Shown here piece by piece: positions 30,056 to 38,674 of a DNA stretch of 64,000 bases. The notes under the pieces are model-generated. The model did not search any database, was not told where the DNA came from, and was given only the letters and a program-made list of their open reading frames with translations. The position numbers and the translations under genes are program-made. Each line of letters starts with the position of its first letter. The stretch's first letter is position 1. Source of the stretch: Chloroflexota bacterium. GTDB lineage: Bacteria > Chloroflexota > Anaerolineae > Anaerolineales > Villigracilaceae. The stretch spans positions 1 to 64,000 of the forward strand of contig JAIOAQ010000009.1 in assembly GCA_019873735.1 (NCBI GenBank), written 5' to 3'.

Positions 30056-31399
30056 CTATGCCACTGCCGCCGGGCTGTACAACTGCCGGCGGATCTCCAC
30101 AACGCGGCGGCGCAAGCGATCGTCGCGTTCGAGCAAATCCGAGATTTTTTCAATGGCATACATGACGGTCGTATGATCGCGCCCGCCCAGAGCCTGGCCG
30201 ATTTGCGGCAAGGATGCGTTTGCTTCCTCCCGCAGCAGGTACATGGCTACCTGACGCGGCAGGGCAACTTCACGCGAGCGGTCGCGTCCCAGCAACTTTT
30301 CGGTGGGCATGTTAAACGAACGGGCCACCAAATCTAAGACATGTTCAGGGCGCACATCACCGCGCGGGGGCAGCAAGTCGGCCAGAGCCATTTCGGCCAC
30401 CTGCCCGCTGATGGGCATGCCGCTCAATTCGGAAAAAGCCATCACCCGATTGAGCGCCCCCTCCAATTCGCGAATGTTGGACTGTACGCGGTTGGCAATC
30501 AGGTTCAAAATTTCATCCGGCACATAGCGGCCGTTCCGTTCGGCCTTAGCACGCAAAATGGCCAGGCGTGTCTCCAAATCGGGGGGCTGAATATCGGCGG
30601 TCAATCCCCATTCAAAGCGGGAACGCAAACGTTCTTCCAGGGTGACCAGCGACTTTGGCGGCCTATCGGATGAGACGATAATCTGCTTATCTTGCCCGTG
30701 GAGATGATTGAAGGTATGAAAGAACTCTTCCTGGGTTGATTCCTTGCCGGCGATGAATTGAATGTCGTCAATCAGCAGGACATCAATCGAGCGGTATTTT
30801 TCGCGGAATGCGGGGGTGGTATGGGTGCGGATGGCGTTGATCAGGTCGTTGGTAAATTCTTCTGAAGAGACATACAGGACATTCAGTCCCTGCTCCTGGC
30901 AAGCGTTGCCGGTGGCCTGCAGCAGGTGGGTTTTGCCCAGCCCAACGCCGCCATACAGGAAAAGCGGGTTATAGGCGCGCGCCGGTCTCTCTACCACCGC
31001 CTGAGCGGCTGCATGCGCCAAGCGGTTGCCCGACCCAACCACAAAGGTATCAAAGGTATAACGCGGGTTCAGGGTTGGGTTGCGCGGCCGGGGGGCGGGT
31101 TGAGGCTGGGGGTCCGCCTCGCCCGCCTCGGGTTCAGAAGGAAGCGAAAACTCTCCCGATTGGACAACGAAGCAAACGTCAACGTTCAACCCCAATACCT
31201 CTTTGAGTAATCGAATCACCGTGCCCGACAAGCGGCTCTCCAGCCAATCACGGGCATAGGCATTGCGCACCCCAACAGTGAGAACGTTGCCCTGTAAGGA
31301 AAGCGCATACGTATCGCGCACCCAGGTGTCAAAGGATGCCTTGGGCATTTCGAGTTCAAGTTGTCCCAGTACCGATTGCCAAGCCTGCTCTGCGTTCAT
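30056..31399 (-). CDS. dnaA: Chromosomal replication initiator DnaA
   Basis: 447 residues; TTGGAG precedes the ATG. Domain I at about 1-80 (WQSVLGQLELEMPKASFDTWV), a Pro-rich domain II, the AAA+ domain III from about 110 with Walker A GGVGLGKTHLL and Walker B LLIDDIQFIAGKE, and domain IV with the signature GGRDHTTVMYAIEKI near the C-terminus. It melts the origin and starts replication. The neighbouring genes are not dnaN or recF, unlike in many bacteria. The 474-bp region upstream may hold the origin. Confidence 0.97.
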   Translation of the reverse strand: MNAEQAWQSVLGQLELEMPKASFDTWVRDTYALSLQGNVLTVGVRNAYARDWLESRLSGTVIRLLKEVLGLNVDVCFVVQSGEFSLPSEPEAGEADPQPQPAPRPRNPTLNPRYTFDTFVVGSGNRLAHAAAQAVVERPARAYNPLFLYGGVGLGKTHLLQATGNACQEQGLNVLYVSSEEFTNDLINAIRTHTTPAFREKYRSIDVLLIDDIQFIAGKESTQEEFFHTFNHLHGQDKQIIVSSDRPPKSLVTLEERLRSRFEWGLTADIQPPDLETRLAILRAKAERNGRYVPDEILNLIANRVQSNIRELEGALNRVMAFSELSGMPISGQVAEMALADLLPPRGDVRPEHVLDLVARSFNMPTEKLLGRDRSREVALPRQVAMYLLREEANASLPQIGQALGGRDHTTVMYAIEKISDLLERDDRLRRRVVEIRRQLYSPAAVA

Positions 31400-33650: not shown

Positions 33651-34943
33651 ATGACCCAGACATCCCGTATACCCGGCTTTTACAATCAAGACCTTGAAAA
33701 ACGGCGCGAACTGGCAGCCCAGGCAGCGGCTCTGACTCGCGAGGACCTGCTCCCGTATCTGACAGGCGGTCTCAGCCCGGAGCAGGCCGGGCACATGGTA
33801 GAAAACGCGATCGGCACCCATGCTCTGCCGTTAGGACTGGGATTGAACTTTGTCGTCAACGGACGCGAAGTCCTGGTGCCGATGGCGATTGAGGAGCCTT
33901 CTGTGATTGCAGGCGCTTCGTTCATGGCCAAACTGGCGCGTGCTGGCGGCGGCTTTCAGGCCACCGCTTCCGAGCCAAACATGATCGGGCAAATCCAAAT
34001 CCTCAACCTGGCCGATATTTACGCCGCCAGGCTGGCCATTTACGAACACAAAGCCGAACTGCTTTCTGCGGTTGACGAGATCGATCCTCTTCTAAAAAAA
34101 CTGGGCGGCGGCGCACGCGACCTGGAAGTCCGCATCTTTGAGGCCTCGCCCATTGGGCCATTCCTGGTAGTGCATCTCATTTACGATGTGCGGGACGCCA
34201 TGGGAGCCAATGCCATCAACACCGCCTGCGAAAGGCTTGCCCCGCGCCTTGAGCAAATCACCGGCGGACGCGTACACCTGCGCATCCTGTCAAATCTGGC
34301 CGACCAACGGCTGGCGCGCGCCCGCTGCACCATCCCGCTCAACGAACTGGCCTTTGAAGAATACAGCGGCGAGCAGGTACGCGATGGCATCATCGCGGCC
34401 TGGGCCTTTGCTGCCGCCGATCCTTACCGGGCGGCGACCCACAACAAAGGCATCATGAACGGCGTGGATGCCGTGGTCATTGCTACCGGCAATGACTGGC
34501 GCGCCATCGAAGCCGGTGCGCACGCTTACGCGGCCCGCTCCGGGCGCTATACCAGCCTGAGCACATGGGGCAAAGATGCCGCCGGCAACCTGGTTGGCAC
34601 GCTGGAAATGCCCATGGCAGTGGGCATTGTCGGCGGCGCAACCAAAGTTCACCCTGCGGCCCAGGCAGCCATCAAACTGATGGGCATCCAAACCGCGGCC
34701 GAACTGGCCGAAATCATCGTCTCGGTTGGGCTGGCCCAAAATCTGGCCGCTCTGCGCGCCCTGGCCACAGAAGGCATCCAGCGCGGACACATGTCCCTGC
34801 ATGCCCGGCAGGTAGCCATTGCTGCCGGCGCCAGGGGCGAACAAATCGAAAAACTCGCGGCTCAACTGGTAGCCGAAAAAACGGTCAGGATAGACCGGGC
34901 CGAAGAAATCCTGAGACAATGGAATCAAGGACACAACGATTGA
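33651..34943 (+). CDS. mvaA: Class II (degradative-type) hydroxymethylglutaryl-CoA reductase
   Basis: 430 residues. All catalytic residues of the class II enzymes are in place and close to Pseudomonas mevalonii numbering: Glu82 in EEPS, Lys266 in HNKGIMNG, Asp282 in GNDWRA, and His380 in [10 protein letters not shown]. The substrate-binding [12 protein letters not shown] is at 51-62. It interconverts HMG-CoA and mevalonate. Despite the class name, its operon with HMG-CoA synthase points to mevalonate synthesis for isoprenoids. First gene of the four-gene operon. Confidence 0.95.
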
Positions 34944-34995
34944 GAATTTCATAGTTTTGCAGTATTCATCAACCACATTGGAGCAAAAAAATACT

Positions 34996-36057
34996 ATGCC
35001 AGAAAACACCCTCCTCAAACCTGTAAAACCCGTTGGCATTGTTGGGTACGGCGCGTATGTGCCGCGTTACCGTATCCCCGCCAAAGAAATCGCCCGCATT
35101 TGGACCGGCGGTAAAGACAGCGTGCCGATCAAAGAGAAAGCCGTACCCGGATTGGATGAAGACGTGGCCACCATGTCTATCGAGGCGGCCCGCAATGCCC
35201 TGCTGCGCGCCCCGGTAAACCCGCAGGAAATTCGCGCCGTGTGGGTTGGTTCGGAATCGCATCCTTATGCCGTTAAGCCCACCTCCACCATTGTGGCCGA
35301 GGCGATTGGAGCAGCGCCCAATGTCCAGGCCGGCGACTGGGAATTTGCCTGCAAAGCCGGAACAGAGGCCATGGTAGCCGCCATCGGCCTGGTCGGCTCT
35401 GGCATGGCACATTACGCCATGGCCATCGGCATGGACACGGCGCAGGGCCGTCCCGGCGACGCGCTGGAATACACGGCCGGCGCAGGCGGCGCGGCCTACT
35501 TGCTTGGCCCGGCAGAAGAGTCGCTGGCAGTTATCAATGCTACATTCTCATATGTCACCGATACACCCGACTTCTGGCGCCGCCCCGAACAGAAATACCC
35601 CCAGCACGGCTTGCGCTTTACCGGCGAGCCGGCCTATTTCAAACACATCACCGAAGCCGGCAAAACGCTGATGGAAGCCAGCGGCACAACTGCCAAAGAC
35701 TATCGCTATGCCGTTTTCCATCAACCCAACACCAAGTTCCCGCAACGCGTGGCCGGCATCCTTGGCTTTACCAAAGAGCAAATCGCCCCCGGCCTGCTCG
35801 TGCCGGTCATCGGCAACACTTATGCCGGCGCGGCCGTCATCGGCCTGACTGCCATCCTAGACATTGCCGAACCAGGCGACCGCATTCTGATGGTCTCCTT
35901 CGGATCTGGAGCCGGCTCGGATGCCTTTGACATCCTCGTCACCGAGGCAATCAAAGAACGTCAGGGGCGGGCGCCCAAAACACAGGATTACATTGCCCGC
36001 CGCACAGAGATTGACTACGGCACCTACGTGCGTTTCCGCGATAAACTGGCAAAGTAA
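34996..36057 (+). CDS. Hydroxymethylglutaryl-CoA synthase, archaeal type
   Basis: 353 residues from the ATG at 34996 with TTGGAGC upstream; the same site precedes the next gene. Length and sequence match the archaeal HMG-CoA synthases and not the eukaryotic/Gram-positive type. The nucleophile is Cys119 in [12 protein letters not shown], and His242 is in [12 protein letters not shown]. It condenses acetyl-CoA with acetoacetyl-CoA. In archaea this enzyme forms a complex with an acetoacetyl-CoA thiolase and a DUF35 protein, and exactly these two genes follow. Confidence 0.93.
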
Positions 36058-36072
36058 GGCATTGGAGCAAAA

Positions 36073-37230
36073 ATGACAGACGTTATCATCGCGGGTATCG
36101 GGCAAACGCCCGTCGGTGAACACTGGGAAATATCCCTGCGTTCCCTGGCCGTCAAGGCCATGCTGGCCGCCATAAACGATGCGGGCGGCCTGCGCCCACA
36201 GGCGCTTTTCGTGGGCAACATGCTGGCGCCTGCCGTCTCGCGTCAGGCCCACCTGGGCGACCTGCTGGCCGATTTTGCCGGTCTAACCGGCATAGAAGCC
36301 GTGTTGGTAGAGGCCTCGGGGGCCTCAGGCGCGGCTGCGCTGCGTCAGGGTTACCTGGCGGTGGCTTCTGGAGCAGTGGATACAGCCCTGATTGTCGGTG
36401 TGGAAAAAGTGACCGATTACGTCGGTCCCGAGGTGGATGCCGCCCTGGCAACGGCTTCTGACAGCGATTTTGAGGCAGTGCAAGGCGTCACCCCGGCGGC
36501 ACTGGCCGCGCTCCTGATGCGCCGCTACATGTATGAATTCGATGTCCCGCCAGATGGCCTGGCCGGTTTTGCCCTCACGGCGCATGAAAACGCGGCAGGC
36601 AATCCGCACGCCATGTTCCAGAAAGCCATCTCGCTGGAAGCCTACCAACAGGCCGAGATGATCAGCGAGCCGCTCAACATGCTTGATGTGGCGCCAAATG
36701 CAGATGGCGCCGCGGCCGTCCTGCTCACTCGAAGCGATTTGCTTCCCCGTGCTTACGCCCAGCCACAGGTCAAAATTGCCGGGTCGGCGCTTGCCTCCGA
36801 TACACTGGCCTTGCATGACCGCAGCGATTTGCTGGCCTTTGACGCGGTGCGCATCTCTGTGGAACAGGCCTTACGCCGAGCCGGGCTGACACGTGAGCAG
36901 GTAGATTTCTTTGAATATCACGACGCCTTCTCGATTTATGCTGCCCTCTCTCTGGAGGCTTCGGGCTTTGCCGCGCGCGGCCAGGGCTGGAAGATGGCAC
37001 AAGACGGTTCCATTTCGCGGACCGGAAGTCTGCCCTGCGCGACCCTGGGCGGACTCAAGGCCCGCGGCAACCCTGGCGGCGCCTCGGGCGTGTACCAGGC
37101 AGTCGAAGCCGCGATCCAGTTACGGGGTCAGGCCGGAACCGCCCAGGTGGCAAATGCCAAAGTTGGATTAATTCAGTCGCTGGGAGGTCCGGCAGCCACT
37201 GCCGTGACGCATGTCTTACAAACCGTCTAA
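36073..37230 (+). CDS. Thiolase-fold protein of the archaeal acetoacetyl-CoA thiolase group, with altered active site
   Basis: 385 residues, SCP2/archaeal thiolase fold throughout (FFEYHDAFSIYAALSLEASGF, GGLKARGNPGG). By eye against the family, the nucleophilic Cys of the VEAACASG-type motif is Gly83 here (VEASGASG), the His of GHPxGATG is Asn333 (GNPGGASG), and the His of the C-terminal HNxGG is replaced by Gln-Ser (IQSLGG). The His in EYHDAF is kept. With these changes normal thiolase chemistry seems unlikely, so it may be a structural partner of the HMG-CoA synthase or bind acyl-CoA without condensing it. The reading frame is intact and the gene is 15 bases from the synthase, so decay is not evident. 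Confidence 0.88.
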   Translation: MTDVIIAGIGQTPVGEHWEISLRSLAVKAMLAAINDAGGLRPQALFVGNMLAPAVSRQAHLGDLLADFAGLTGIEAVLVEASGASGAAALRQGYLAVASGAVDTALIVGVEKVTDYVGPEVDAALATASDSDFEAVQGVTPAALAALLMRRYMYEFDVPPDGLAGFALTAHENAAGNPHAMFQKAISLEAYQQAEMISEPLNMLDVAPNADGAAAVLLTRSDLLPRAYAQPQVKIAGSALASDTLALHDRSDLLAFDAVRISVEQALRRAGLTREQVDFFEYHDAFSIYAALSLEASGFAARGQGWKMAQDGSISRTGSLPCATLGGLKARGNPGGASGVYQAVEAAIQLRGQAGTAQVANAKVGLIQSLGGPAATAVTHVLQTV

Positions 37231-37318: not shown

Positions 37319-37726
37319 ATGGAAATTCCACGCCATTGGCGACTCAAACAACAGCGTTATTCTCTGGTTGGCGAAACCTGTCCCCATTGTGAGGCAAAGA
37401 TCTTCCCGCCGCGCGATGTGTGTCCCACTTGCGGCGGCGAGGCCAAAACGCAGTACACGTTTAGCGGTAAAGGAGAGGTCTTTTCTTACACCACGATTTA
37501 TGAGGCCCCCAGCGGCTATGACGAAACCGCGCCCTACACGGTGGCGTTGGTCAAGTTAGAAGAAGGCCCCATCATTACCGCCCAACTGACCGACCTGGGC
37601 GACCAGCCGGTGGAAATCGGCATGCCGGTAGAGATGGTCACGCGTAAACTGCGCTCGGAAAACGAGGACCGCGGCATTCTGATTTACGGGTACAAGTTTC
37701 GCCCCGTGTTGAGCCGGGCTGCATAG
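37319..37726 (+). CDS. DUF35 protein: rubredoxin-like Zn ribbon plus OB fold
   Basis: 135 residues; AAAAGGAG precedes the ATG. The Zn ribbon uses Cys21, Cys24, Cys35 and Cys38 (CPHC, CPTC). The OB fold follows with GKGEVFSYTTIYEAP and IITAQLTDL. In archaea DUF35 proteins hold thiolase and HMG-CoA synthase together and form a shared CoA-binding site that passes acetoacetyl-CoA between them. Its place as the last gene of the operon fits that role here. A strong terminator follows. Confidence 0.92.
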   Translation: MEIPRHWRLKQQRYSLVGETCPHCEAKIFPPRDVCPTCGGEAKTQYTFSGKGEVFSYTTIYEAPSGYDETAPYTVALVKLEEGPIITAQLTDLGDQPVEIGMPVEMVTRKLRSENEDRGILIYGYKFRPVLSRAA

Positions 37727-37813: not shown

Positions 37814-38674
37814 TCAGCCCAATAATTCGGGCAGCGCCAGCCACTCACCCGGCTGACCGTCACAGGTGACAGCCTCAACAAGAATGCGGGACTGCACCAG
37901 AGATTTCAAAGCACGCCTCACCAGTTCTGGCGGCCAACCAAAGAGGCGGCTTACATCTTTTGCCTGTGCAGCGCCCAGCGAGCGGAAATAAAGTTCAATC
38001 AACTTTTGACGGGCTTCGGCTTCGCCAATGGCGCGGGCGCGCTCGGGCAAATCGGGATAGTGGCGGGCAACAATTTCGTAAATGAAAGCATATCGCCAGG
38101 CTCCTACCGGCGCTACACCAATGGGGAGGATGGCAAATGCAGCCTGCAATTGCTCTAAGGCGCGGTTGAACTCTGCTTCAGCCGCCGGAGCGGACAGGCG
38201 CGCCGCTTTGCGCAGAGAAATCGTATCGAGCGGCCCTTCAGACAGGATGGCGGCGTAGATGTTTTTAGCAGCCAGAGTCAGGTGTCCCTGCTCATAAGCC
38301 AGCAGGTAGTCTTCTTCTGGCGAGCCGTAATTCTCGCTCAAAGCATAAAAGTAGGGGACAATGTCCAGGGAAATCAGGGTTGCTTTTCGGCGCAGCACTT
38401 TGGCATAGTACCAGATACGCCTGCCAAGCGCCTCGTCCTTCCAGCGCCAGGTAATGTGACCAGGGTCATCGTGGGCATCTGGGACCGGCCGGTCGCCTGC
38501 CACTGCCATCCACAGGCTGGGGAGCAGAATACCCTTGATAGGCCAGAAAAAGACAAAGCCGCGCCGGTTGACAAAATCCAGTGCCTGAGCCGGGGAAGCA
38601 ATTGGGGAAGCGGGCGGCAGGCAAAAAGTGCGGGCGCGATACGCCTGCAAGCATTTCGGGTCAAGCAATGGCAT
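37814..38674 (-). CDS. AlkZ-related winged-helix protein
   Basis: 286 residues. The N-terminal half has the AlkZ-related signature RRGFVFFWPIKGILLPSLW and GDRPVPDAHDDPGHITWRWKD (within residues 37-80). The rest is helical with winged-helix-like segments (FGWPPELVRRALKSLVQSRIL). AlkZ/YcaQ glycosylases unhook DNA crosslinks, but this shorter group lacks an assigned activity. The QxQ motif of catalytic AlkZ is not visible. It converges on the mevalonate operon. The gene could encode a DNA-binding protein without glycosylase activity. Confidence 0.7.
   Translation of the reverse strand: MPLLDPKCLQAYRARTFCLPPASPIASPAQALDFVNRRGFVFFWPIKGILLPSLWMAVAGDRPVPDAHDDPGHITWRWKDEALGRRIWYYAKVLRRKATLISLDIVPYFYALSENYGSPEEDYLLAYEQGHLTLAAKNIYAAILSEGPLDTISLRKAARLSAPAAEAEFNRALEQLQAAFAILPIGVAPVGAWRYAFIYEIVARHYPDLPERARAIGEAEARQKLIELYFRSLGAAQAKDVSRLFGWPPELVRRALKSLVQSRILVEAVTCDGQPGEWLALPELLG

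Follow-up and report, generated by a model that had tools for sequence, protein, structure and literature searches.

The HMG-CoA operon described here raises the question of what a thiolase contributes to an HMG-CoA synthase complex once it has lost the residues with which thiolases work. The thiolase/HMG-CoA synthase (HMGCS)/DUF35 complex is cited as an example of an intermediate being passed directly from one enzyme to the next. In the window, by which we mean the whole 64,000-nucleotide stretch of Chloroflexota DNA that was analyzed, the gene order is HMGR-HMGCS-thiolase-DUF35. The thiolase, HMGCS, and DUF35 genes thus lie together, an arrangement conserved in relatives:

33651 to 34943, + strand: class II HMG-CoA reductase, HMGR (PF00368; TIGR00532, 411 bits)
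34996 to 36057, + strand: HMGCS, archaeal type (TIGR00748, 541 bits), with catalytic Glu87, Cys119, and His242 intact
36073 to 37230, + strand: predicted thiolase-fold pseudoenzyme subunit P0001, 385 aa, in an open, full-length frame
36319 to 36321, + strand: codon 83 of P0001, Gly (GGG) replacing the nucleophilic Cys, aligned with the Cys of EAACASG/EAACGSG
36919 to 36921, + strand: codon 283, the His of HDAF, kept by alignment
37036 to 37038, + strand: codon 322, the sole Cys of P0001, a derived state of the window's clade where intact copies have Ile/Val
37069 to 37071, + strand: codon 333, Asn (AAC) replacing the GHP His by alignment
37177 to 37179, + strand: codon 369, Ser replacing the Asn of the QNIGG motif by alignment
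37319 to 37726, + strand: DUF35/ChsH2-like protein with zinc ribbon and OB fold (PF12172, PF01796), four zinc Cys intact

For HMGCS, the ATG start at 34996 was preferred to a TTG at 34957. A DnaA gene (30056 to 31399, − strand) precedes the HMGR gene by 2.3 kb, and beyond the DUF35 gene, on the opposite strand, lies a gene for a DNA glycosylase related to AlkZ (37814 to 38674, −).

P0001 aligned end to end with its best solved relatives, the Pyrococcus thiolase 7YVY (E = 4e-99) and the thiolase of 6ESQ (E = 4e-67). Its AF2 model (mean pLDDT, 91.7) matched 6ESQ/6ET9 in Foldseek at a TM score of 0.95, predicting a thiolase fold. A preliminary description of this locus, made from the sequence alone, had reported a full-length frame with the thiolase fold kept, the nucleophilic Cys replaced by Gly83, and the GHP His replaced by Asn333; each of these points was borne out. 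Among 135 intact sequences of the same subfamily, Cys83 and His283 were present in all and His333 in 134. The further claim that the HN of a C-terminal HNxGG had become QS held for its second residue (Asn369 to Ser); the motif of intact subfamily members is Q-N (AQNIGG), so Gln368 of P0001 is normal. A shifted Cys or His was ruled out: the catalytic residues were not seen to realign at other conserved positions, and the sole Cys, Cys322, is off the nucleophile position and aligns with Ile/Val of intact copies. Sequencing or assembly error and a local pseudogene were likewise ruled out, since nearly all close relatives carry the same losses: at 65 to 76% identity, Gly83 was found in nearly all (one has Glu), and His333 was absent from all, with mostly Phe in its place. 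Without the nucleophilic Cys, P0001 does not qualify as a catalytic thiolase (EC 2.3.1.9/16); nor, with Gly83 and Asn333, does it match the thiolase subunit of the known complex, which has a nucleophilic Cys (Cys85 in 6ESQ) and a second active-site His. Because the nucleophilic Cys and the GHP His are both missing, the first condensation by the known mechanism would be impossible. From these residues we infer that P0001 is catalytically dead, and we use "dead" in this sense throughout.

Like the archaeal complex of Methanothermococcus thermolithotrophicus (6ESQ/6ET9), the window encodes the same three families together, and neither the catalytic residues of HMGCS nor the zinc ligands of DUF35 have been lost; unlike in that complex, the thiolase lacks the two catalytic residues. 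Residues of all three proteins contribute to the CoA site of 6ESQ (PMC6392133), and thiolase and synthase are linked through DUF35 (PMC6392133; PMC12329534; PMC6996347). Given this three-protein site and bridge, an unreactive thiolase may remain necessary for positioning DUF35 and completing the CoA site of HMGCS. We favor, with a probability of roughly 0.7, the reading that the dead thiolase is a scaffold pseudoenzyme that keeps DUF35 and the shared CoA site in place for HMGCS while acetoacetyl-CoA is made in trans. P0001 would belong to the thiolase/HMGCS/DUF35 complex as a pseudoenzyme subunit that has given up acetyl-CoA condensation, its fold retained as the platform that DUF35 and the shared CoA site require, enabling HMGCS. 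Acetoacetyl-CoA would be produced here by one of three canonical thiolases or by an intact paralogue with 51% identity and would reach the complex from solution, direct thiolase-to-synthase hand-over having been abandoned. Complex formation, inactivity, and in-trans supply are all elements of this reading that we infer.

The substitutions are common to other Chloroflexota, a comparison that the preliminary description had proposed: of the 53 families of the class (Anaerolineae) that were sampled, 19 have dead operon thiolases. Counted by genome, in a sample that is to a large part metagenome assembled and whose members are not independent of each other, the Cys site of dead operon copies holds Asp (30), Gly (28), Glu (5), Asn (2), Ala (1), or Gln (1). 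Every sampled operon-keeping genome of two families in the window's order (f1 and f2) has a dead copy beside HMGCS, and nearly all f1/f2 genomes with a dead copy have an intact copy elsewhere too. Dead operon copies also occur in two groups of archaea, with Ser (L055) or Gly (L058 and L060). Several individual loci deserve mention. An operon thiolase of family f28 (L105, genome G059) has an intact Cys and Asn for the GHP His and is possibly an intermediate of catalytic loss. The operon of G289 (L160, family f3), a genome without a canonical thiolase, holds an intact thiolase from the clade that is located in trans in f1/f2, possibly through re-capture of an intact copy. One locus labeled Phycisphaerales (L036) is a 4-kb contig with a Chloroflexota operon and looks misbinned, and another (L057) is frameshifted close to codon 83, probably through a sequencing error.

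Trees, built with short searches, were used to count losses. The thiolase tree, with motif columns excluded, gave 8 changes of state between intact and dead, a figure that takes in archaeal rows and non-operon proteins with Thr or Pro at the Cys site. The HMGCS tree of operon rows gave 9 changes, and a thinned HMGCS tree gave 10. The majority of dead copies fall in one large clade, with others amid intact relatives (e.g., in families f56, f9, f16, f21, f45, and f52). One ancestral loss was nonetheless rejected, as an AU test on HMGCS excluded the grouping of all dead copies in one clade (p = 7.6e-6). When only well-supported branches are counted, no more than 3 changes are required, and the exact number is uncertain. 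Catalytic loss therefore appears, from these sequence comparisons, to have happened several times independently; intact archaeal homologues suggest that the direction was loss rather than gain. What the preliminary description proposed as a new form of the complex is a recurrent condition and not one genome's quirk.

Around the dead thiolases, the partner proteins keep their key residues: the HMGCS triad Glu87/Cys119/His242 was intact in 77/77 dead operons, and the zinc Cys of DUF35 were 100% conserved. The thiolases themselves had a median pairwise dN/dS of 0.089 (275 pairs), compared to 0.056 for intact operon copies (125 pairs). Positions fixed in intact copies and released in dead ones were 83, 122, 128, 141, 145, 285, 333, 335, and 374, together with neighbors in the same motifs, all within the regions of the catalytic motifs, while ∼46 other positions were near-invariant in both, in conservation groups that mix families unevenly. 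The pattern indicates, at the sequence level, that catalysis was released and the remainder of the protein kept. With catalytic residues gone and the protein under purifying selection, the dead thiolase fits the definition of a pseudoenzyme. Five positions (14, 51, 64, 181, and 354) were conserved in operon copies only and are interface candidates, all weak.

Were the dead copy instead functionless and on its way to being lost, faster evolution would be no surprise, and dead copies do evolve faster than intact ones at matched HMGCS identity: at ∼70% HMGCS identity, dead thiolases are 53% identical to each other and intact ones 67%. However, a dN/dS of ∼0.09 contradicts decay, frames are full length and stop-free in almost all genomes, and loss of the gene was seen only where HMGCS had also been lost; two f1 genomes (G367 and G298) have neither. 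We regard decay as highly improbable. The scaffold reading gains from the conserved placement beside the single HMGCS across relatives; the home genome itself has one HMGCS and one close DUF35. Against it, the DUF35 gene has relocated out of the operon in many f1/f2 genomes (e.g., G027, G061, G213, and G243), to several kilobases or farther from the dead thiolase though still in the genome.

If catalysis has been given up, acetoacetyl-CoA would come from another enzyme, and the preliminary description had suggested a search for one. The home genome has three canonical thiolases, each retaining its Cys, NEAF, and GHP motifs, as well as the intact paralogue of the same subfamily, a standalone gene (C5:80603-81745) that reads EAACGSG/HDAF/GHP/AQNIGG. 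The sample comprised 155 genomes. An intact operon copy was present in every one of the 42 that lack a canonical thiolase (TIGR01930), and the 113 with one had 67 dead and 46 intact operon copies; a dead operon was thus never seen without a canonical thiolase in the same genome. By genome, with kinship uncorrected, the association had a Fisher p of 3e-13, but it is phylogenetically clumped; by family, dead operons occurred in 0/7 without a canonical thiolase versus 18/46 with one (p = 0.08). Once kinship is allowed for, the link between a dead operon copy and another thiolase is no more than suggestive. Each of three archaeal dead-operon genomes also had a canonical thiolase. This pattern is the one expected if the operon copy may lose catalysis only when acetoacetyl-CoA is supplied from elsewhere.

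The intact paralogue could act more directly, by forming a mixed oligomer with the dead subunit so that the complex retains thiolase sites. An intact, vertically inherited copy of the same subfamily is present in nearly every f1/f2 genome with a dead copy, and the G289 operon holds an intact copy from the paralogue's clade. However, many dead-operon genomes are without an intact subfamily copy (e.g., G034, G035, G012, G232, and G270). Pairing is on this ground not a general requirement, and a general need for the intact paralogue was rejected; we consider the mixed oligomer unlikely.

A different chemistry, the other option named in the preliminary description, would make the dead thiolase a repurposed catalyst, its pocket kept for a Cys-free reaction such as aldol/retro-aldol chemistry (as in Ltp2 and Sal) or malonyl-CoA decarboxylation. 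The Ltp2-ChsH2(DUF35) and Sal-Shy(DUF35) aldolases (6OK1, 9MYR) are likewise Cys-less thiolase folds with a DUF35 partner. Sal, an aldolase acting with DUF35, has Gly at the same nucleophile site as P0001 and, according to the authors of that study, cannot carry out thiolytic cleavage (PMC12329534). TbSLP (5AB4-7), also a thiolase fold without the nucleophilic Cys although with no associated DUF35, carries out very slow malonyl-CoA decarboxylation (PMC12329534). ST0096 (4YZO), a thiolase fold with Ser at the nucleophile site in our alignment, may be another such case. Retention of His283 in 73/89 dead copies and the presence of ∼28 derived, near-fixed positions in the window's clade, Cys322 included, would also suit such a catalyst. 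In contrast to P0001, however, Ltp2 and Sal have catalytic Tyr/Cys or Tyr/Tyr and serve steroid side-chain cleavage rather than HMG-CoA synthesis. Their YD(C/H)(F/Y) motif is HDAF in the window, and Tyr283 with Cys or His at 285 was found in 0/89 dead copies, which rules out an aldolase of the Sal/Ltp2 motif. Residues at 83, 283, 285, and 333 differ greatly from one dead lineage to another, unlike what one conserved new chemistry would produce, and dead copies have no conserved Cys elsewhere save Cys322 in one clade. The adjoining HMGCS is intact, moreover, and would still require acetoacetyl-CoA. A repurposed catalyst is in our judgment doubtful.

The comparative evidence instead favors a structural partner with acetoacetyl-CoA from elsewhere: losses are recurrent with differing residues, HMGCS and DUF35 are intact, the thiolase is under purifying selection, the dead gene is missing where HMGCS is missing, and another thiolase is present in every dead case examined. 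The window's own clade adds a complication. Among relatives of at least 65% identity, the pocket is derived and near-fixed at Gly83, Phe/Asn333, Gln144, Ala145, Cys322, Ser369, Pro373, and Ala374 (the window protein has Asn333 and Leu144). Such positions are not drifting, which counts against a pure scaffold and would suit a new function too. Because several of them, Cys322 included, are derived and fixed, we allow, at a low probability, that the dead thiolase of this clade acquired a role beyond scaffolding, such as docking or sensing of an acyl-CoA (e.g., acetoacetyl-CoA) or a non-thiolytic reaction feeding HMGCS.

Other Cys-less thiolase folds were encountered outside the operon. Standalone relatives with Thr (ATATGA; L151, L154, and L178 to L181) or Pro (NGPASG; L182 and L183) at the Cys site keep both His and are, as judged from sequence, two further Cys-less groups. 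In the home genome, contig C2 at ∼65.8 to 72.3 kb (L006:5806-12290) encodes two DUF35 proteins along with two distinct thiolase-fold proteins that lack the nucleophilic Cys (PRK06066-like and PRK06065-like), a pair of CoA-transferase-like subunits, and an acyl-CoA dehydrogenase, a predicted additional Cys-less thiolase/DUF35 system.

By analogy, the nearest precedent for the scaffold reading is the PhlABC acyltransferase of Pseudomonas protegens (5M3K/5MG5), a three-part complex of the same architecture with one condensing subunit dead; its noncatalytic subunits are thought to be necessary for assembly (PMC6392133). It is a mirror image: in PhlABC, the dead subunit is the HMGCS-like PhlA (Gly115 and Cys83; Cys and Glu lost), and the thiolase-like PhlC is active via Cys88 (PMC6392133), whereas the window shows the reverse, an HMGCS with its Cys and Glu beside a thiolase without its Cys. 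Our literature search, thin on subscription papers, found no earlier report of catalytically dead thiolases in an HMG-CoA operon.

Taken together, these data suggest that the dead thiolase probably persists as a structural component of the complex with which isoprenoid synthesis begins. The annotation of the operon thiolase as acetyl-CoA acetyltransferase would then be wrong in many genomes. If thiolase activity has repeatedly been lost while the protein stays, the complex may have been held together over evolutionary time by assembly and CoA binding rather than by channeling, and the intact and dead versions in related genomes would form a natural series for testing the worth of channeling.
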